This document shows positions 3,301 to 49,590 of a stretch of DNA of 50,493 nucleotides, piece after piece. The stretch covers positions 1 to 50,493 of the forward strand of contig JAFTDE010000003.1 of the NCBI GenBank assembly GCA_017454335.1, written 5' to 3'. Under the pieces are notes generated by a model, which was not told the DNA's origin, searched no databases, and saw only the letters and a program-made list of their open reading frames with translations. The DNA comes from Bacteroidales bacterium (GTDB lineage: Bacteria; Bacteroidota; Bacteroidia; Bacteroidales; UBA932). How positions within the stretch are numbered: position 1 is the first letter of the stretch; each line of letters begins with the position of its first letter. The position numbers and the translations under genes are program-made.

Positions 3301-4029
3301 CAGCGCGAATACATCACCAAGGAAGGCAGCGTCTGGATCGACCGCATCGGATTTGACGTCGACCTGATCCAGGAATCCCGCCTGGGCGGCATCGCCATGA
3401 ACCGCAGCCAGCACCTGGTGCCCGTCAACCTGGTCAACTGGATCTTCGACGACGAAGCCGACGCCGAGAAACTGGCCATCCTGGTCCACGACCGCAGCCG
3501 CAGCGGATTCTCCGTCGATTTCTACAATACTTCCCGCAAGGCCATCAAGCTGGACATGCAGGGACTGGAACTGCTGGGCGGCGACTGGGAACTGACGGTC
3601 GGCGGCAAGACCCGCACCGTCCGTTTCGGCCGTGACCGCCGCGTCAGCCTGCGCATCCCCGCCCGCCGCGAGTACACCATCACCATGAAACTCCAGGGCG
3701 AGGGCCGGGATTTCAACCAGCTGCCCGACCTGGGCATCGGCTGCGAGGATGTCGCGGTGAACGGCAATGCCGTGGAAGTCACCGTGCACAACATCTCCGG
3801 CCAGGATGTGGACGGGATGGAGATCGCCCTGGCGGACGCCCGCGGCAAGGTGCTGGTCAGGGAGCGCATCCCCGCCATCGCCGCGCCGGCCGACCTGATC
3901 CCCAAGACGGCGAAAGTGACCCTGCAGCTGCCTTCCGGCCGCAAGGCGACGGGCCTGAACGTCCTGCTGGATCCCGACAACCGCATCGAAGAAATCTACG
4001 AAACCAATAACCGAATCCAAATCCAATAA
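319..4029 (+). CDS. Secreted LamG-domain protein with alpha/alpha-toroid-like core and CARDB-like C-terminus (copy 1)
   Basis: Predicted 1236-aa exported protein. The start at 319 is chosen because it directly precedes a clean signal peptide (MKKTLFLATLLAAAVLNLQA, then QDD); an upstream TTG in frame at 280 overlaps the -7 box. Residues about 45-235 look like a concanavalin A/LamG jelly roll, with segments such as TLAFWWR, WTHIALSWD and IRLYLNG and ending DEVRIY. A second beta-rich region follows (about 285-450). An aromatic helix-rich region (about 700-1000) resembles an alpha/alpha toroid of lyases or glycosidases. The last 100 residues resemble a CARDB/APHP domain (DPDNRIEEIYETNN). The next gene is a close full-length paralog only 4 nt downstream. 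A role in binding or cutting an extracellular polysaccharide is inference; I recognise no catalytic signature. Confidence 0.8.
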   Translation: MKKTLFLATLLAAAVLNLQAQDDNALLFHLSGEKGVTADYAAGASTPNFVSRVSVIPDGRVGKGIRCELGQRLAYKAPGNIYAERGTLAFWWRAHEPFGPTEFPLFRVGFADHSSWDMTWLRIDWNGHGFDAFVTDNNLVRVRVSTNSKKPGADEWTHIALSWDEKSGIRLYLNGVEAARRDTAVVLNTGLDQFGPHSRVISPYQVQSAYNMQRGGDIDEVRIYGQALSGAQVAALAGNRPGNVPVTPQDFTDPAVRREWQHFYGFDGATPPYLEHTATTVRKIGILESYDLKRWWWKANDGIRETTWPGVYNRSRIEGRNDYFQLPDWDCYSTSGIQVRFNMPDEPWNYVEMSGGAFGSLALSRNDDGTDAKEFDTKAYGTQHTFHKLAEPVKGQTLVFTNEVQETPIQELDAYYIHEGDAPQGISRLSYSVGEFHDYNHPQLLAVREFIEGRYTPQERQMLLARSDRRGRMREDQAQNAEMMMRQQAQQGMIRPRKGSLPIVHVVIPSDYRDIGINEALTLSTETAGDNWSAGGSAGGNTSWRNIPAGLDGIRIDLPALNVKAGPDGLVPINIQVKDPIWKLRNMLDFSFSVKPGERRTLWLDLRDRILPNDEPLYLTFASANDDFSAASLSGLRIELIFKDREAAKKEHTDDRFTQVRDTYAMIVEENTQSRRLSKFAQIDKDLNDLMRVDPYHTPGRNYWALYYGEQMGPDYTEPVAPKNMPEWAFVQLEILKKYRSLIEWYIDNRQVEYGEFGGGISDDTDLTNHFTGLFCIGDIREKIGKSLHLFMDAVDREGTLTRGISTIQTDGLHTYEEGGNTLCQINYTEAGNPRQAERLMESVKSFYEQVMAVNAQGHLHFRSDYFSATKIALEWPWTWNSSRENLHSGPALMLGEYYGNPTARDIWLRYADSLLEHKRVVNGNPQLPMEINFLTDEVRSWGISYLSALFCYAYYWTGEEKYREILEASGFTSFEPTKESLVRQGRQLLRSIAQREYITKEGSVWIDRIGFDVDLIQESRLGGIAMNRSQHLVPVNLVNWIFDDEADAEKLAILVHDRSRSGFSVDFYNTSRKAIKLDMQGLELLGGDWELTVGGKTRTVRFGRDRRVSLRIPARREYTITMKLQGEGRDFNQLPDLGIGCEDVAVNGNAVEVTVHNISGQDVDGMEIALADARGKVLVRERIPAIAAPADLIPKTAKVTLQLPSGRKATGLNVLLDPDNRIEEIYETNNRIQIQ

Positions 4030-9212: not shown

Positions 9213-9305
9213 CGTGTCTAGGCTGGGTGTCCAACCTGTAGCCTAGACACGTTTTCCCGGGGTCTTCGCGTCTAGGCTATACCCCGCCCCCATAGCCTAG
9301 ACACA
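9213..9305. repeat. Four-arm alternating palindromic array, 27-nt period (array 1)
   Basis: Four 12-nt arms alternate in orientation and start exactly 27 nt apart. They are CGTGTCTAGGCT (9213-9224), AGCCTAGACACG (9240-9251), CGCGTCTAGGCT (9267-9278) and AGCCTAGACACA (9294-9305). The three spacers are each 15 nt and unrelated to one another: GGGTGTCCAACCTGT, TTTTCCCGGGGTCTT and ATACCCCGCCCCCAT. Arms 1 and 2 are perfect inverses; arms 3 and 4 each differ by one base. No fifth arm is found on either side. Confidence 0.9.
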
Positions 9306-32595: not shown

Positions 32596-33351
32596 CTACC
32601 AATTCTTCTCTTTTTGTCTGGACTTCAACAGGGCGGCCTTCTCCCGGTTGACTTTGTCCTGGGTATCTTTTTCCTTGGCCTGGATGGCGCGCAGCATCTG
32701 CTGGGCCTGCTGGGGAGAGATCTTCGGCTCGTCCTGGTTCTGGTTCTGATCCTGGTTCTGATCCTGGTTCTGATCCTGGTTCTGATCCGGGTTCTGGTTC
32801 TGGTCCTGGTTCTGGTCCTGGTTCTGGTCCTGGTTCTGGTCCTGGTTCTGGTCCTGGTTCTGGTCCTGGTCCTGGTTCTGATCCTGGTTCTGGTCCTGGT
32901 TCTGATTCTGATCCTGGTTCTGCTGGTTCTGGAGCATCATCTTGGCGTAGATGTAGTTCTCCTTGGCATCCAGGTCCCCGGGCGTCAGCAGCAGCGCGTC
33001 GCGGAAAGCCTCGACGGCCGCGGCATAATCCTGCCGCTGCAGGGCGACGTCCCCGCGGTTGTAGGCGTACTGCGCCGCGTGCGGGCCGGACGGGGCGACT
33101 TCCTTGACCTTGTCCAGCGCGGCGAGGGCGCCCTCGTAGTCCTCCTGCCGGTACAGGCTGGACGCGAGGTTGTACTGCGCCGCCACCGACAGCGAATCCT
33201 TGAGGGCCGCCTTGCGGTAGTCGATCTCGGACTCCTTGAACTTGCCCCGGCGGAACTTGGCGTTGCCCGCGCGGACGTCATGCCGGTCCGCCTGGGCCTG
33301 CACGCCGATACACAGCAGCAGCGCTGCCATCACCAACAAGATCCTTTTCAT
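32596..33351 (-). CDS. batC: BatC-like TPR protein with long Asn-Gln-Asp-Gln repeat
   Basis: 251-aa exported protein: signal peptide [19 protein letters not shown], then tetratricopeptide repeats (about 25-130; [39 protein letters not shown]). These are the usual BatC features. Residues about 143-206 are an almost pure repeat of the tetrapeptide NQDQ. A short charged tail follows ([20 protein letters not shown]). BatC proteins often end in a polar low-complexity stretch, but this one is unusually regular. The gene overlaps batB by 4 nt upstream and ends 1 nt before batD-batE, so translation is coupled. Confidence 0.88.
32732..32930 (-). repeat. 12-nt coding tandem repeat in batC
   Basis: About 16 copies of a degenerate 12-nt unit (plus-strand CTGGTTCTGATC and CTGGTTCTGGTC variants) encode NQDQ repeats. 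Copies are near-identical at DNA level, so copy number may vary between strains by slippage without breaking the frame when whole units are gained or lost. Confidence 0.9.
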
Positions 33352-46113: not shown

Positions 46114-47217
46114 TTATTTCAAATGGATTTTGGCGAGGAAGTGCTCCGGGGCATCCTCGCCTTTTTTCATGATTTCCGGATGGGCAATCTTGGAGGCAAA
46201 ACACGCGGAGAACGCATCGATGGACTCCGGCAGGACCATTGTGTACAGGGTCTTTCCGGAAAGGGACAGGAAGAGAAAGTCTTTGCCGCTGAACGCATTC
46301 TGCAGACAGAACCAGCACCACTTGCCGTCCGGGCACTTCAGGCCGCAGTAGCGGGTGCTCTTTTGGGCGTGCGGCTCTTGTGTGATCACCTGGACAAGGG
46401 AATAACGCGTTCCTTCCTGGTATCCTGCAATCACCGCGAAACTGGATCCCAGCAGTAACTCAGCGCCCTCCATGCGGTCCTTTACTTTAAAGAATTGGTC
46501 ATCAATGGCATAATCGCCGAAATCAAAGACCAGATAAGGCGCGAACACGCCGTCTTTGAAGGAGTGAATTTCGTCACTGAACGAATCAATAAACAGGATG
46601 GTCCCATCCTTTGTTTCCGAAAAGACATCCCATCCCGCCATCAGGGAAAGGACCTCGTCTTCCGTCACCAGGTAAGGTGTCTGGGTTCCGTCGCCGGCCG
46701 TGAAAAGGACACGAGGAGAGCCCTTTTCCTGATAACCCCGGTAAGTCAGTATACCGTCCCCGACCAAATAGTACCCCATGCCGGGGTTCTGGATATCACA
46801 TTCCCGTAACGGTTCACCAGTGGTGGAGTAGACATCATATTTGCCCGTTTGTGTAAAAACAATGACAGAATCCCCCCGAACCTGCTCATTATGGATAGAA
46901 GGATACTCCAACGGGCCACGCCCCTTGGATCCGACGGTGTTGAGAAAAGACCCGTCCGCAGCATAACGGAAGATATTCAGGTTCTGATGATCAGCGAGGA
47001 TAAACCCGCCATCCGGCAGGAGTTTGATCGCCAGCATGGAACCCAGCAGATGATCTTCATCCTCTTCGATGGGGACCAACTCCACGGAAGAAACATGTTC
47101 CAGCAACGGCTCCTCGGACGGAACGATTTCCATTTTCACCGCATCCCCATTGCCTTTGTCCCGCGCGCATGCCGACAACAACAGCATCGCACACAATAGA
47201 ATCGATAATCTTCTCAT
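46114..47217 (-). CDS. 6-bladed beta-propeller lipoprotein
   Basis: 367-aa lipoprotein. The start at 47217 is set by a clear AGGAGG six nt upstream and by the signal MRRLSILLCAMLLLSAC with lipobox LSAC; longer in-frame starts exist at 47232 and 47319. The mature part shows propeller-like repeats of the Bacteroidota 6-bladed (BF3164/DUF4934-like) type: LLPDGGFILADHQNLNIFRY, AADGSFLNTVGSKGRGPLEY, and later blades. Such proteins are often surface or periplasmic and of unknown function. GC and codon use are lower than in parC. It converges on parC with a 1-nt gap and its upstream region is full of palindromes. Confidence 0.85.
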   Translation of the reverse strand: MRRLSILLCAMLLLSACARDKGNGDAVKMEIVPSEEPLLEHVSSVELVPIEEDEDHLLGSMLAIKLLPDGGFILADHQNLNIFRYAADGSFLNTVGSKGRGPLEYPSIHNEQVRGDSVIVFTQTGKYDVYSTTGEPLRECDIQNPGMGYYLVGDGILTYRGYQEKGSPRVLFTAGDGTQTPYLVTEDEVLSLMAGWDVFSETKDGTILFIDSFSDEIHSFKDGVFAPYLVFDFGDYAIDDQFFKVKDRMEGAELLLGSSFAVIAGYQEGTRYSLVQVITQEPHAQKSTRYCGLKCPDGKWCWFCLQNAFSGKDFLFLSLSGKTLYTMVLPESIDAFSACFASKIAHPEIMKKGEDAPEHFLAKIHLK

Positions 47218-47223
47218 AGAATT

Positions 47224-47229
47224 CCTCCT
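47224..47229 (-). promoter_or_regulatory. Shine-Dalgarno site for the propeller lipoprotein
   Basis: AGGAGG on the minus strand is 6 nt before the ATG at 47217. A full Shine-Dalgarno is unusual for Bacteroidota, where most genes lack one, and it decides between three in-frame starts. Confidence 0.6.
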
Positions 47230-47248
47230 CATTTTTGACTCATTTTGG

Positions 47249-47256
47249 CAAAAATA
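47249..47256 (-). promoter_or_regulatory. Possible -7 box of the propeller lipoprotein gene
   Basis: TATTTTTG on the minus strand matches TAnnTTTG, 31 nt before the ATG. No matching -33 TTTG is seen; a hairpin at 47267-47300 occupies the upstream region. Confidence 0.4.
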
Positions 47257-47266
47257 CAAAAAAGTA

Positions 47267-47300
47267 CCATTACTCGTGGCCATTTGTACACGAGTAGTGG
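47267..47300. repeat. Inverted repeat upstream of the propeller lipoprotein gene
   Basis: CCATTACTCGTG (47267-47278) and CACGAGTAGTGG (47289-47300) are inverse copies with one mismatch around a 10-nt loop. A G4T5 run follows on the plus strand, so a terminator or operator are both possible. Confidence 0.65.
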
Positions 47301-47346
47301 GGGTTTTTGTTTTTCGCAAAGGTACCGTTCCCCTTCGTCTTCCCCG

Positions 47347-47418
47347 CCCGGGCCCGGCAAGGGTCTGGACGGGAAAAGGATTCGGGGAGAGCCCGCCAGA
47401 CCCTTTGCCGGGTCCGGG
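47347..47418. repeat. Long GC-rich inverted repeat
   Basis: Arms of about 22 nt (47347-47368 and 47396-47418, each containing GGCAAGGGTCTGG or its inverse with one extra base) pair with one bulge and one G-T pair around a 27-nt loop. Confidence 0.75.
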
Positions 47419-47428
47419 CGCAAGCGAG

Positions 47429-47520
47429 TGCTGTTACTCCCCCCGTGGAGGACCGGGACTAACAGCATTTTTGGCCTATTTTGCTGTTAGTCCCCCCTGC
47501 GCTGACCAGGACTAACAGCA
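47429..47520. repeat. Four-arm alternating palindromic array, 26-27-nt period (array 2)
   Basis: Four 13-nt arms alternate in orientation. They are TGCTGTTACTCCC (47429-47441), GGGACTAACAGCA (47455-47467), TGCTGTTAGTCCC (47482-47494) and AGGACTAACAGCA (47508-47520). Spacers are 13, 14 and 13 nt and unrelated to one another. Arms 2 and 3 are perfect inverses; arms 1 and 4 each differ by one base. No fifth arm is found on either side. Confidence 0.9.
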
Positions 47521-47551
47521 CCAGGGATGCCCGATCAAGACGGAGATGACG
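47521..47551 (-). repeat. Hairpin repeat copy C (degenerate)
   Basis: On the minus strand the first 29 nt match copy A (8953-8981) at 25 positions (CGTCATC, TTGATCGGG and ATCCCT are shared). It directly abuts array 2. Its stem is partly broken. Confidence 0.6.
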
Positions 47552-47618
47552 GTGTAACGGAGAATTTTAAGGCGCGCCCCAGCGCGCCCGGCGGGGTTGG
47601 CGACAAAGGTCGCAATTT

Positions 47619-47705
47619 GTTCTGGCGCACAAATAGCTCTGCAGAGTGCTCTATGGCAGGGTAAGCGCTAGGACGCGGCGATTTTGCCTCGTTCTGGCGC
47701 ACAAA
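47619..47705 (+). repeat. 15-nt direct repeat pair
   Basis: GTTCTGGCGCACAAA occurs at 47619-47633 and 47691-47705, 72 nt apart start to start. The first copy is preceded by TT, so TTTGT and ACAAA also form a small inverted repeat there. Confidence 0.7.
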
Positions 47706-47832
47706 CGCCCGCTCAATGCCTTACAGCCCCTGTTCAGCGCCAGGATGGTTTGCGACCTTACACTTCTACCCCGGCACCCAGGCCCGGCGGCAACGCAGGG
47801 AGTTTGAGGGGTACGCCCCCTCAATGGATAAT

Positions 47833-47866
47833 AATAATTTGACAATCAGACGATTATCAAATTATT
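47833..47866 (-). terminator. Hairpin over the recJ stop codon
   Basis: AATAATTTGACAATC (47833-47847) and GATTATCAAATTATT (47852-47866) are inverse copies with one mismatch around a 4-nt loop. The hairpin spans the recJ stop codon (47857-47859). No long T run follows, so it may act by stabilising the 3' end. Confidence 0.6.
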
Positions 47867-49590
47867 TCGTCGCGTTCGCGGAGATCCTTGACGCGGAGCT
47901 GGAGGGTGGAATTGCCGCGGTAGTAGTTCTCGACGATCGAGTAACAAACATCCAGGGGGTTGCCGGACTTGATGTAATCGTAGTAATCCGACATGTTGAA
48001 GGCAATCGCGGCGATCTGGTGATAGGGCTGGGACTCCTGGATCAGATCCAGTTTCATGTGCACGCCGCCGGCCCCCACCTTGCGGCCGTTGCCAGCATCA
48101 TAGACGTTCTCCGTCATGAAGATCGGGTTGCCGTTGCCGGGACCGAAAGGCTGGAACTGCTTGAGGATGCGGAAGAATTTCGGGGTGATCTGGGCGAAAT
48201 TCAACTTGGCGTCGATTTCGACGACGGGGGTGAGCATCTCCGCCGAGATCTTCCCTTCGATAAAGGCGTCGATCCGCCGGGCAAACTCTTCCAGGTTCTC
48301 TTCCTTGAGGGTCAGGCCGGCCGCATAGACGTGCCCGCCGAAGTTCTCCAGCAGGTCCGCGCAGCTCTCGATGGCCTGGTACAGGTCGAATCCGGCGACG
48401 CTGCGGGCGGATCCGGTGACGAATCCGTTGGATTTGGTCAGCACGACCGTCGGCTTGTAGAACGCTTCGACCAGACGTGAGGCGACGATGCCGACCACGC
48501 CCTTGTTCCACTTGGGATTGTAGACGACCGTCGCGTTCTCCGAGGCGAGGCACTTGCCTTTCTGGACCATCTCCAGCGCCTCCTGGGTGATCTTGCGGTC
48601 GATGTTCTTGCGGTCGTTGTTGCTCTCGTTGATCTTCTCGCCGATGAACATGGCGGTCTGCGTATCCTCCGCCGTCAGCAGTTCGACGGACAGGCGGCCG
48701 GACTCCATGCGCCCCGCGGCGTTGATGCGCGGTCCGATCTTGAAGACGATGTCGTCGATGGAGATATGCCCGGGCTCGATGTTCGAGAGATTGATCATCG
48801 CCAGCAGGCCCTTGCGCGGATCCTCATTCAACTGCTTGAGCCCGAAATGCGCCAGGATGCGGTTCTCACCGACCATCGTGACCAGGTCGGAGGAGATGCT
48901 GACGACCAGCAGGTCCAGCAGCGGGATCAGCGATTCGAAGGGGACGCCGTAGCGCTGGGAATAGGCCTGGACCAGCTTGAAACCGACGCCGCACCCGGAC
49001 AGGTCGTCGAAGGGATAGTGGCAGTCTTCGCGCTTGGGGTCCAGCACGGCGGCCGCTGCGGGGAGCTCTTCCTCCGGCAGGTGGTGGTCGCAGATGATGA
49101 CGTCGATGCCCAGGTCCCGGGCGTGGCGCACCTTGTCGATTGCCTTGATGCCGCAGTCCAGCGTGATGATCAGCGAGAACTTGTTCTCCGCCGCCCAGTC
49201 GATGCCCTTGATGGAGACCCCGTAGCCCTCGTCATAGCGGTCGGGGATATAGAAATCCACCGACGAGGTGAAACGCTTGATGAACGAGTACACCAGGGCA
49301 ACGGCCGTCGTCCCGTCCACATCGTAGTCACCGTAGACCAGGATCTTCTCCCGGGAGGTGATGGCCTTGCGCAGGCGCTCGACGGCGGCGTCCATGTCCT
49401 GCATCAGAAAGGGATCGTGCAACTGGTCCAGGGAGGGGCGGAAAAAGCAGCGGGCCTGTTCGAACGACTCGACGCCGCGTTTGATCAGCAACTCGGCCAG
49501 CACCTTGTCGATGCCGACCTCCGTCGCCAGCCGGTCCACCTTGACGGGATCGGCCTGCTCTTTGAGTATCCACCTGCACTCCTTTGACAT
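47857..49590 (-). CDS. recJ: Single-stranded-DNA-specific exonuclease RecJ
   Basis: 577-aa 5'-3' exonuclease of the DHH family, active on single-stranded DNA in recombination and mismatch repair. Motif I is YGDYDVDGTTAVALVYSFIK, motif II IITLDCGIKAIDK, and the DHH motif is IICDHHLPEEELPAAAAVLD. Further family stretches are SDLVTMVGENR, GRMESGRLSVELL, and a C-terminal OB-fold part. Length matches RecJ. A minus-strand TATCTTTG (49597-49604) sits directly before its start; lysS diverges. Confidence 0.95.
   Translation of the reverse strand: MSKECRWILKEQADPVKVDRLATEVGIDKVLAELLIKRGVESFEQARCFFRPSLDQLHDPFLMQDMDAAVERLRKAITSREKILVYGDYDVDGTTAVALVYSFIKRFTSSVDFYIPDRYDEGYGVSIKGIDWAAENKFSLIITLDCGIKAIDKVRHARDLGIDVIICDHHLPEEELPAAAAVLDPKREDCHYPFDDLSGCGVGFKLVQAYSQRYGVPFESLIPLLDLLVVSISSDLVTMVGENRILAHFGLKQLNEDPRKGLLAMINLSNIEPGHISIDDIVFKIGPRINAAGRMESGRLSVELLTAEDTQTAMFIGEKINESNNDRKNIDRKITQEALEMVQKGKCLASENATVVYNPKWNKGVVGIVASRLVEAFYKPTVVLTKSNGFVTGSARSVAGFDLYQAIESCADLLENFGGHVYAAGLTLKEENLEEFARRIDAFIEGKISAEMLTPVVEIDAKLNFAQITPKFFRILKQFQPFGPGNGNPIFMTENVYDAGNGRKVGAGGVHMKLDLIQESQPYHQIAAIAFNMSDYYDYIKSGNPLDVCYSIVENYYRGNSTLQLRVKDLRERDEII

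Follow-up and report, generated by a model that had tools for sequence, protein, structure and literature searches.

What is the four-arm array of alternating short repeats that lies beside recJ in a 50,493-nt stretch of Bacteroidales DNA (hereafter the window)? The original prediction held that this array (array 2) and another, 38 kb away (array 1), share an architecture and no sequence, and that both represent a class of elements. From the analysis of the window, of the remainder of the genome, and of other genomes from the same genus and order, we conclude that array 2 is one copy of a ~93-base double-hairpin family of gut Bacteroidales, a family that probably spreads with a RAYT-like transposase. 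In the reading that we favor, at a probability of roughly 0.87, array 2 is an intergenic, non-coding REP-type doublet of a Y1/HUH RAYT-like group and was spread by a RAYT matched to its stem.

Array 2 and its surroundings

Array 2 is located between recJ and a DUF5128 gene, both on the minus strand. The features are as follows, in window coordinates, with strand where assigned:

9213..9305, plus strand: array 1, of the same class as array 2, with a linker as in the RAYT-side array of contig C34
46117-47217 (as read), minus strand: DUF5128 six-bladed-propeller gene
47259..47308: second hairpin family (ACTCGTG..CACGAGT), copies of which flank the Y1 transposase gene of contig C31
47345..47420: further inverted-repeat family, with its loop reversed in the copy on contig C10
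47427..47521, plus strand: array 2, a pair of 39-nt hairpins joined by a linker; match to covariance model R1 (below) at 47426-47523
47429..47467, plus strand: hairpin 1 of array 2 (arms 47429-47441 and 47455-47467), with a solo hairpin on C10 as close relative
47468..47481, plus strand: T-rich linker of array 2, TTTTTGGCCTATTT, with identical letters in a RAYT-flanking array of genome G023 (L181)
47482..47520, plus strand: hairpin 2 of array 2 (arms 47482-47494 and 47508-47520), with a loop like that of a solo hairpin on contig C62
47583..47860: segment 97% identical to C12:76910-77186, adjoining a recJ 3'-end fragment
47602..47782: repeat element GTTCTGGCGCACAAA, copies of which flank a distant Y1 gene of contig C8, at ~1.3 kb on one side and 0.2 kb on the other
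47857..49590, minus strand: recJ, with DHH, DHHA1 and RecJ_OB domains

The four 12-13-nt arms of array 2 alternate in orientation and start at 47429, 47455, 47482 and 47508, as originally predicted. Arms 2 and 3 are perfect 13-mers, arms 1 (TGCTGTTACTCCC) and 4 (AGGACTAACAGCA) are each one base off, the gaps, counted on 12-nt arms, are 15/14/15, and the stem letters of the doublet are TGCTGTTAGTCC. A scan of the window for four-arm arrays (10-nt arms, at most 1 mismatch) yielded two, at 9213-9305 and 47429-47520, as compared to 0 in 100 first-order Markov shuffles. As a single strand, array 2 folds strongly (z -5.9, DNA parameters); in an alternative fold, arm 1 pairs with arm 4 and arm 2 with arm 3. 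Rfam, at gathering thresholds, gives no match in the window, and array 2 is absent from the output of Tandem Repeats Finder at score 30. A 148-aa ORF (47069-47515, plus strand) overlaps array 2 and is taken as spurious. Elsewhere in the window, a tandem repeat of period 30 and 6.4 copies occupies 32732-32922.

Several repeat families form a mosaic across 47220-47860. Its pieces match repeats elsewhere in the genome, and two of these bracket Y1 transposase genes, one on C31 and one on C8. The loop of the 47345-47420 element is ~27 nt long and has the opposite orientation in the C10 copy (L044:2589-2662). The ~277-bp segment after recJ and its C12 copy read as a segmental duplication; on C12 the copy and the adjoining recJ 3'-end fragment, of 61% identity and with one stop, together take up 76910-77368. 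Among 29 same-genus recJ loci, with flanks of up to 1.5 kb, no array adjoins recJ.

Array 1 consists of 39-nt hairpins with 12-nt arms and gaps of 15/15/15. The claim that the two arrays are unrelated does not survive comparison: both have 39-nt hairpins and T-rich linkers, and TAG occupies a matching position in their arms, except that arm 1 of array 2 reads TAC there. A third array, on C34 (L068:2676-2768), has the linker of array 1 (TTTTCCCGGGGTTTTC against TTTTCCCGGGGTCTTC) and loops resembling those of array 2, and, judged by its letters, bridges arrays 1 and 2.

Extending the architecture scan beyond the window, as the original prediction had proposed, to 652,919 bases of the same genome (the window and, from 40 contigs, up to 20 kb apiece) yielded 10 clusters, as compared to 0, 1, 0 and 1 in four shuffles; a looser setting, under which the C34 array surfaced, gave 14, as compared to 1, 2, 3 and 3. 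Three of the 10 clusters (L037, L049 and L058) look like chance. The same scan of 160,000 bases from other genomes of the order gave 2 clusters, both irregular, as compared to 0, 1, 0 and 0 in shuffles. The number of arms is not fixed at four, since single hairpins and longer runs (L192) also occur. Further double- or multi-hairpin arrays, with GGGGGCA- and TTCTGCAAAA-like stems and no RAYT identified beside them, are present at L035:306-391 and 3411-3496, L039:473-656 and L073:1104-1186; by eye, the genes on either side of the L035 pair resemble ABC-transporter permeases.

Solo hairpins of the array 2 family occur on C10, C62 and C25, and the C10 copy has both flanks as in the window, minus 53 nt corresponding to one hairpin and linker. 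The exact 12-mer of array 2 occurs nowhere else in its own genome; its arm patterns, sought in 295 genomes of the order, match in its own genome only; and its exact paired arms, sought in 400 genomes of the genus, are found in the window's own copy only.

Association of the class with RAYT-like genes

The original prediction had suggested that genomes carrying such arrays might share a gene, such as a RAYT-type transposase. The C34 array begins ~8 nt past the stop codon of a Y1_Tnp (Y1/RAYT-like) gene, and Pfam identifies three Y1 genes in the genome, on C34, C10 and C31, all above the Y1_Tnp cut-off. The C10 and C31 genes are each followed by a tandem double hairpin with different stems. The C10 protein belongs to the same group as the C34 protein (43% identity); the C31 gene is of another Y1 type, and its hairpin pair is spaced more widely, at ~63 nt. 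A fourth, distant Y1 gene is on C8. The best NCBIfam match of the C34, C10 and C31 genes is REP-associated tyrosine transposase (REP_Tyr_transpos, NF047646), at 41.9, 31.8 and 30.3 bits, below the curated cut-off of 80; the three genes are homologous to this family and fall outside it as drawn. Proteins of the RAYT-like group are ~286 aa long, with a YV-MN-VAA motif and a long part after the Y motif.

With the C34 protein as query (E 1e-20, distant matches counted), 107 of 151 genomes of the genus have a match; the only two in 198 genomes of the order belong to the same genus. The RAYT group is common in this Bacteroidales genus, among whose members are rumen MAGs. From 321 relatives of the C34 gene, the best 80 were retained, all from Bacteroidales or Bacteroidia records, with a ruminant host wherever the title names one; this set shares genomes with an earlier 30-locus set, so that the two are not independent. 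A four-arm array is present within 400-500 nt of the gene at 59 of these best 80 loci, as compared to 0, 1 and 0 of 80 in three shuffles; the strict scan finds no array near the gene at the remaining 21. Arrays are found on the 5' side at 40 of 77 loci with enough flank and on the 3' side at 43 of 78, never inside the gene, and farther out at 6 loci. The distance between hairpin centers, which the scan left free, is 51-53 nt in 85 of 86 arrays. In the background, an array is present in 2 of 188 genus chunks; the only two genus hits of the architecture scan are both in L093, either side of a RAYT gene of this group in genome G033. A Fisher test of 59/80 versus 2/188 gives P ~1e-38, for loci that are related and hence not independent. 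Among the first 32 Y1 loci, drawn through Pfam, 5 had a strict array (the C34 locus was missed at that setting), and many of the rest, by eye, are other Y1 types with single hairpins. In one such type of the genus (L148, L150, L151, L159, L166, L167 and L174), inspection by eye shows one hairpin, with a sequence of its own, soon after the gene, perhaps a cognate repeat or a terminator. The results show that a Y1/HUH homologue is linked to the repeat class. Both the class of elements and its RAYT-type gene, as originally proposed, are borne out.

We built a covariance model, R1, from an alignment (A3) of 17 arrays at loci of the RAYT group in 12 other genomes. Rows of A3 were limited to arrays with odd loops whose spacing is exactly 52, because they then align without gaps, and the orientation used for every array was the one in which T outnumbers A in the linker. 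Selection thus covered pairing, spacing and linker T-over-A orientation, and left the linker T run and the outer ends unselected; L197:2959, out of register, was excluded, and in two rows (L184:506 and L201:3702) the array is 0.9-1.4 kb away from the RAYT gene. In A3, 85% of cells are paired, with both-side changes at 23 of 24 pairs; because the arrays came from a scan for similar inverted repeats, this pairing is partly by construction. In the window, R1 matches array 1 at 32.1 bits (E 5.9e-6) and array 2 at 24.2 bits (E 3.8e-4; ~0.016 when scaled to the whole genome), and the next-best match has 9.9 bits (E 0.74), so that only arrays 1 and 2 are significant. A search of the whole genome, with 150 of 477 candidates scored and both arrays 1 and 2 missing from the list, gave seven places: two at RAYT genes (C10 and C34), three (C53, C25 and C48) with stems like that of C34, and two (C52 and C44) with another stem common to both. 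Over 68 other loci (911,344 bases; fetched genus locus L101 left out), R1 matched the L093 pair only.

In hand-picked genomes of the genus (17 in all, of which G016, G442 and G376 had contributed rows to A3), R1 matches are present in all 8 that have a close RAYT and in none of the 8 without (P 1.6e-4); G337, with a distant RAYT only, was counted as without, and G061, with a distant RAYT and one weak match (E 0.005), was set aside. Outside the genus, under stricter filters, 58 genomes gave one match, in G065 (31.5 bits, E 7e-4). Because this off-target score exceeds that of array 2, the class membership of array 2 rests on the model together with linker, ends and spacing.

These results bear on an account in which the arrays are transcript elements (terminators, attenuators or mRNA-stabilizing hairpins) and their likeness is merely incidental. 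The arrays are intergenic, T-rich past the first hairpin, and often 3' of the RAYT gene, and the single-strand fold of array 2 would suit such a role. However, two like hairpins at fixed spacing, occurring both 5' and 3' of RAYT genes, and in genomes with a close RAYT as opposed to genomes without, are not what this account predicts. We consider it very unlikely as the primary explanation; an additional transcript role is possible as a secondary one.

Stems, lineages and a proposed mechanism

Stems vary between lineages, with all arms changing together. They often start with GTGC and finish with GTCC around a variable middle (by eye), and array 2 conforms. Features found class-wide are the ~52-nt register, the T-rich linker and outer GTG/CAC ends; the most common outer bases are AGTG(C), each in part of the arrays, and a GTAG/GTGG foot 5' of the hairpin is absent from the consensus. 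The proposal that geometry and not sequence is conserved is thus half right: geometry is kept while stems change, but the arrays also have the linker, the ends and some of the stem in common. The outer AGTG/CACT ends are inverted. Loops of at least 7 nt favor direct orientation (26 versus 7 inverted, 9 ties), as do loops of all arrays (43 direct versus 24, 18 ties); array 2 is direct (9 versus 2 of 15), and array 1 (4 versus 5) and the C34 array (28 versus 28 of 39) are neither. Because loops lean direct and outer ends are inverted, the arrays should not be called canonical REPINs.

At 25 loci with two arrays flanking one gene, mean stem agreement between the two is 0.86, as compared to 0.51 between loci, where ~5% of stem pairs reach 0.75. 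Genome G374, which contributed no row to A3, contains a single close RAYT match alongside at least 10 dispersed doublets; the stem GTAGACGGTCCA, or a near variant of it, is found in all 10 fetched dispersed arrays, drawn from the top of its R1 match list, and in both arrays beside its RAYT gene. For G442, seven dispersed arrays were fetched: the stems of the C35 RAYT appear in four, those of the C36 RAYT in two, and neither in one. In these two genomes, each transposase has its own dispersed repeat family. The suggestion that arms are matched to a partner therefore stands for the class, from G374, G442 and the two-sided loci, but not for array 2 itself: the RAYT-like genes of its genome have other flanking stems, and none flanked by array 2's own stems was found in that assembly, which is 79% complete. 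Array 2 may be a relic, or its cognate RAYT may lie in the missing fifth of the genome.

Two further accounts concern the likeness of arms within an array. In the first, a hairpin is duplicated in tandem by a neutral process and its arms are homogenized by template switching, with no transposase involved. This would fit the 53-nt difference between the window and the C10 copy and the direct orientation of longer loops, and duplication may explain gain or loss of hairpins within an element; as a full account it leaves the RAYT link and the dispersed same-stem copies unexplained, and we judge it highly improbable. Paired operators for double-strand DNA-binding regulators, one regulator per array, would account for alternating sites ~27 bp apart with like arms, but hardly for a class that clusters beside one transposase group and for same-stem copies dispersed in G374 and G442, and we give this idea next to no weight.

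According to the REP-type doublet reading, the RAYT would act on the hairpin in single-stranded DNA, by analogy with TnpA-REP (PMC8266576), would cut near the linker or the outer ends, and would carry doublets into intergenic sites. The stem sequence would provide the match to the cognate RAYT. Candidates for a cleavage or guide site are the T-rich linker, which is unpaired, and the AGTG/CACT ends. Arms within an array would be alike because copies descend from, and stay compatible with, one RAYT. A tentative extension, possible though short of an even chance, is that the long RAYTs of one genus radiated with the stem, rather than a GTAG-type guide, as private address, with arms rewritten together in a fixed two-hairpin frame and coexisting RAYTs orthogonal to one another. 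If so, dozens of natural RAYT/stem pairs would make the recognition code readable.

Comparison with known systems

Among the closest known systems is REP/REPIN (BIME) with RAYT (TnpA-REP; PMC8266576, PMC3116915), exemplified by E. coli and Pseudomonas REPtrons: short intergenic palindromes and doublets. The elements analyzed here share with it intergenic doublets, Y1/HUH genes that each have a repeat family of their own on their flanks, the presence of more than one family in a genome, and singlets alongside doublets. Unlike REP/RAYT as described there, the arrays are without a GTAG/GTGG foot and keep a T-rich linker and ~52-nt spacing, their loops suggest direct pairing, and the protein is ~286 aa, with a long part past the Y motif. 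As with IS200/IS605 ends, a Y1 transposase gene has hairpins on both sides; unlike IS200/IS605, the fetched dispersed doublets are ~90-nt elements without a gene.

A survey of TnpA-Y1 proteins (PMC6006769) provides four points of comparison. Subclass 2.4 includes Bacteroidetes among others and has long and 'double foot' REPs, the latter with complementary GT-G/C-AC ends reminiscent of the arrays; its described foot is GT[AG]G, its motif YIxNNP and its median length 194 aa, whereas the arrays' ends are AGTG(C) and the protein is of ~286 aa with motif YV-MN-VAA. Subclass 2.6, mostly Bacteroidetes with atypical structures, resembles the present group in non-canonical hairpins near the gene and further copies elsewhere in the genome, and differs in the description of a median of 179 aa and a YIH[QN]NP motif. 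Subclasses 2.1 and 2.3 share the long C-terminal part, and 2.1 also NHVH; they had no REP-like sequences nearby in that survey, whereas here doublets adjoin 59 of 80 genes. A literature search by titles and abstract openings, mostly without subscription papers, returned no other description of the double-hairpin form.

The way in which RAYTs recognize their repeats and spread them is understood only in part. The present group provides many transposase/stem pairs in one frame, in some genomes several, and thereby makes stem recognition and co-evolution directly testable. For Bacteroidetes, PMC6006769 reports canonical or double-foot REPs (2.4) and atypical structures (2.6), and none beside the long subclasses 2.1 and 2.3; REP-type doublets are now tied to a long RAYT-like group in Bacteroidales.
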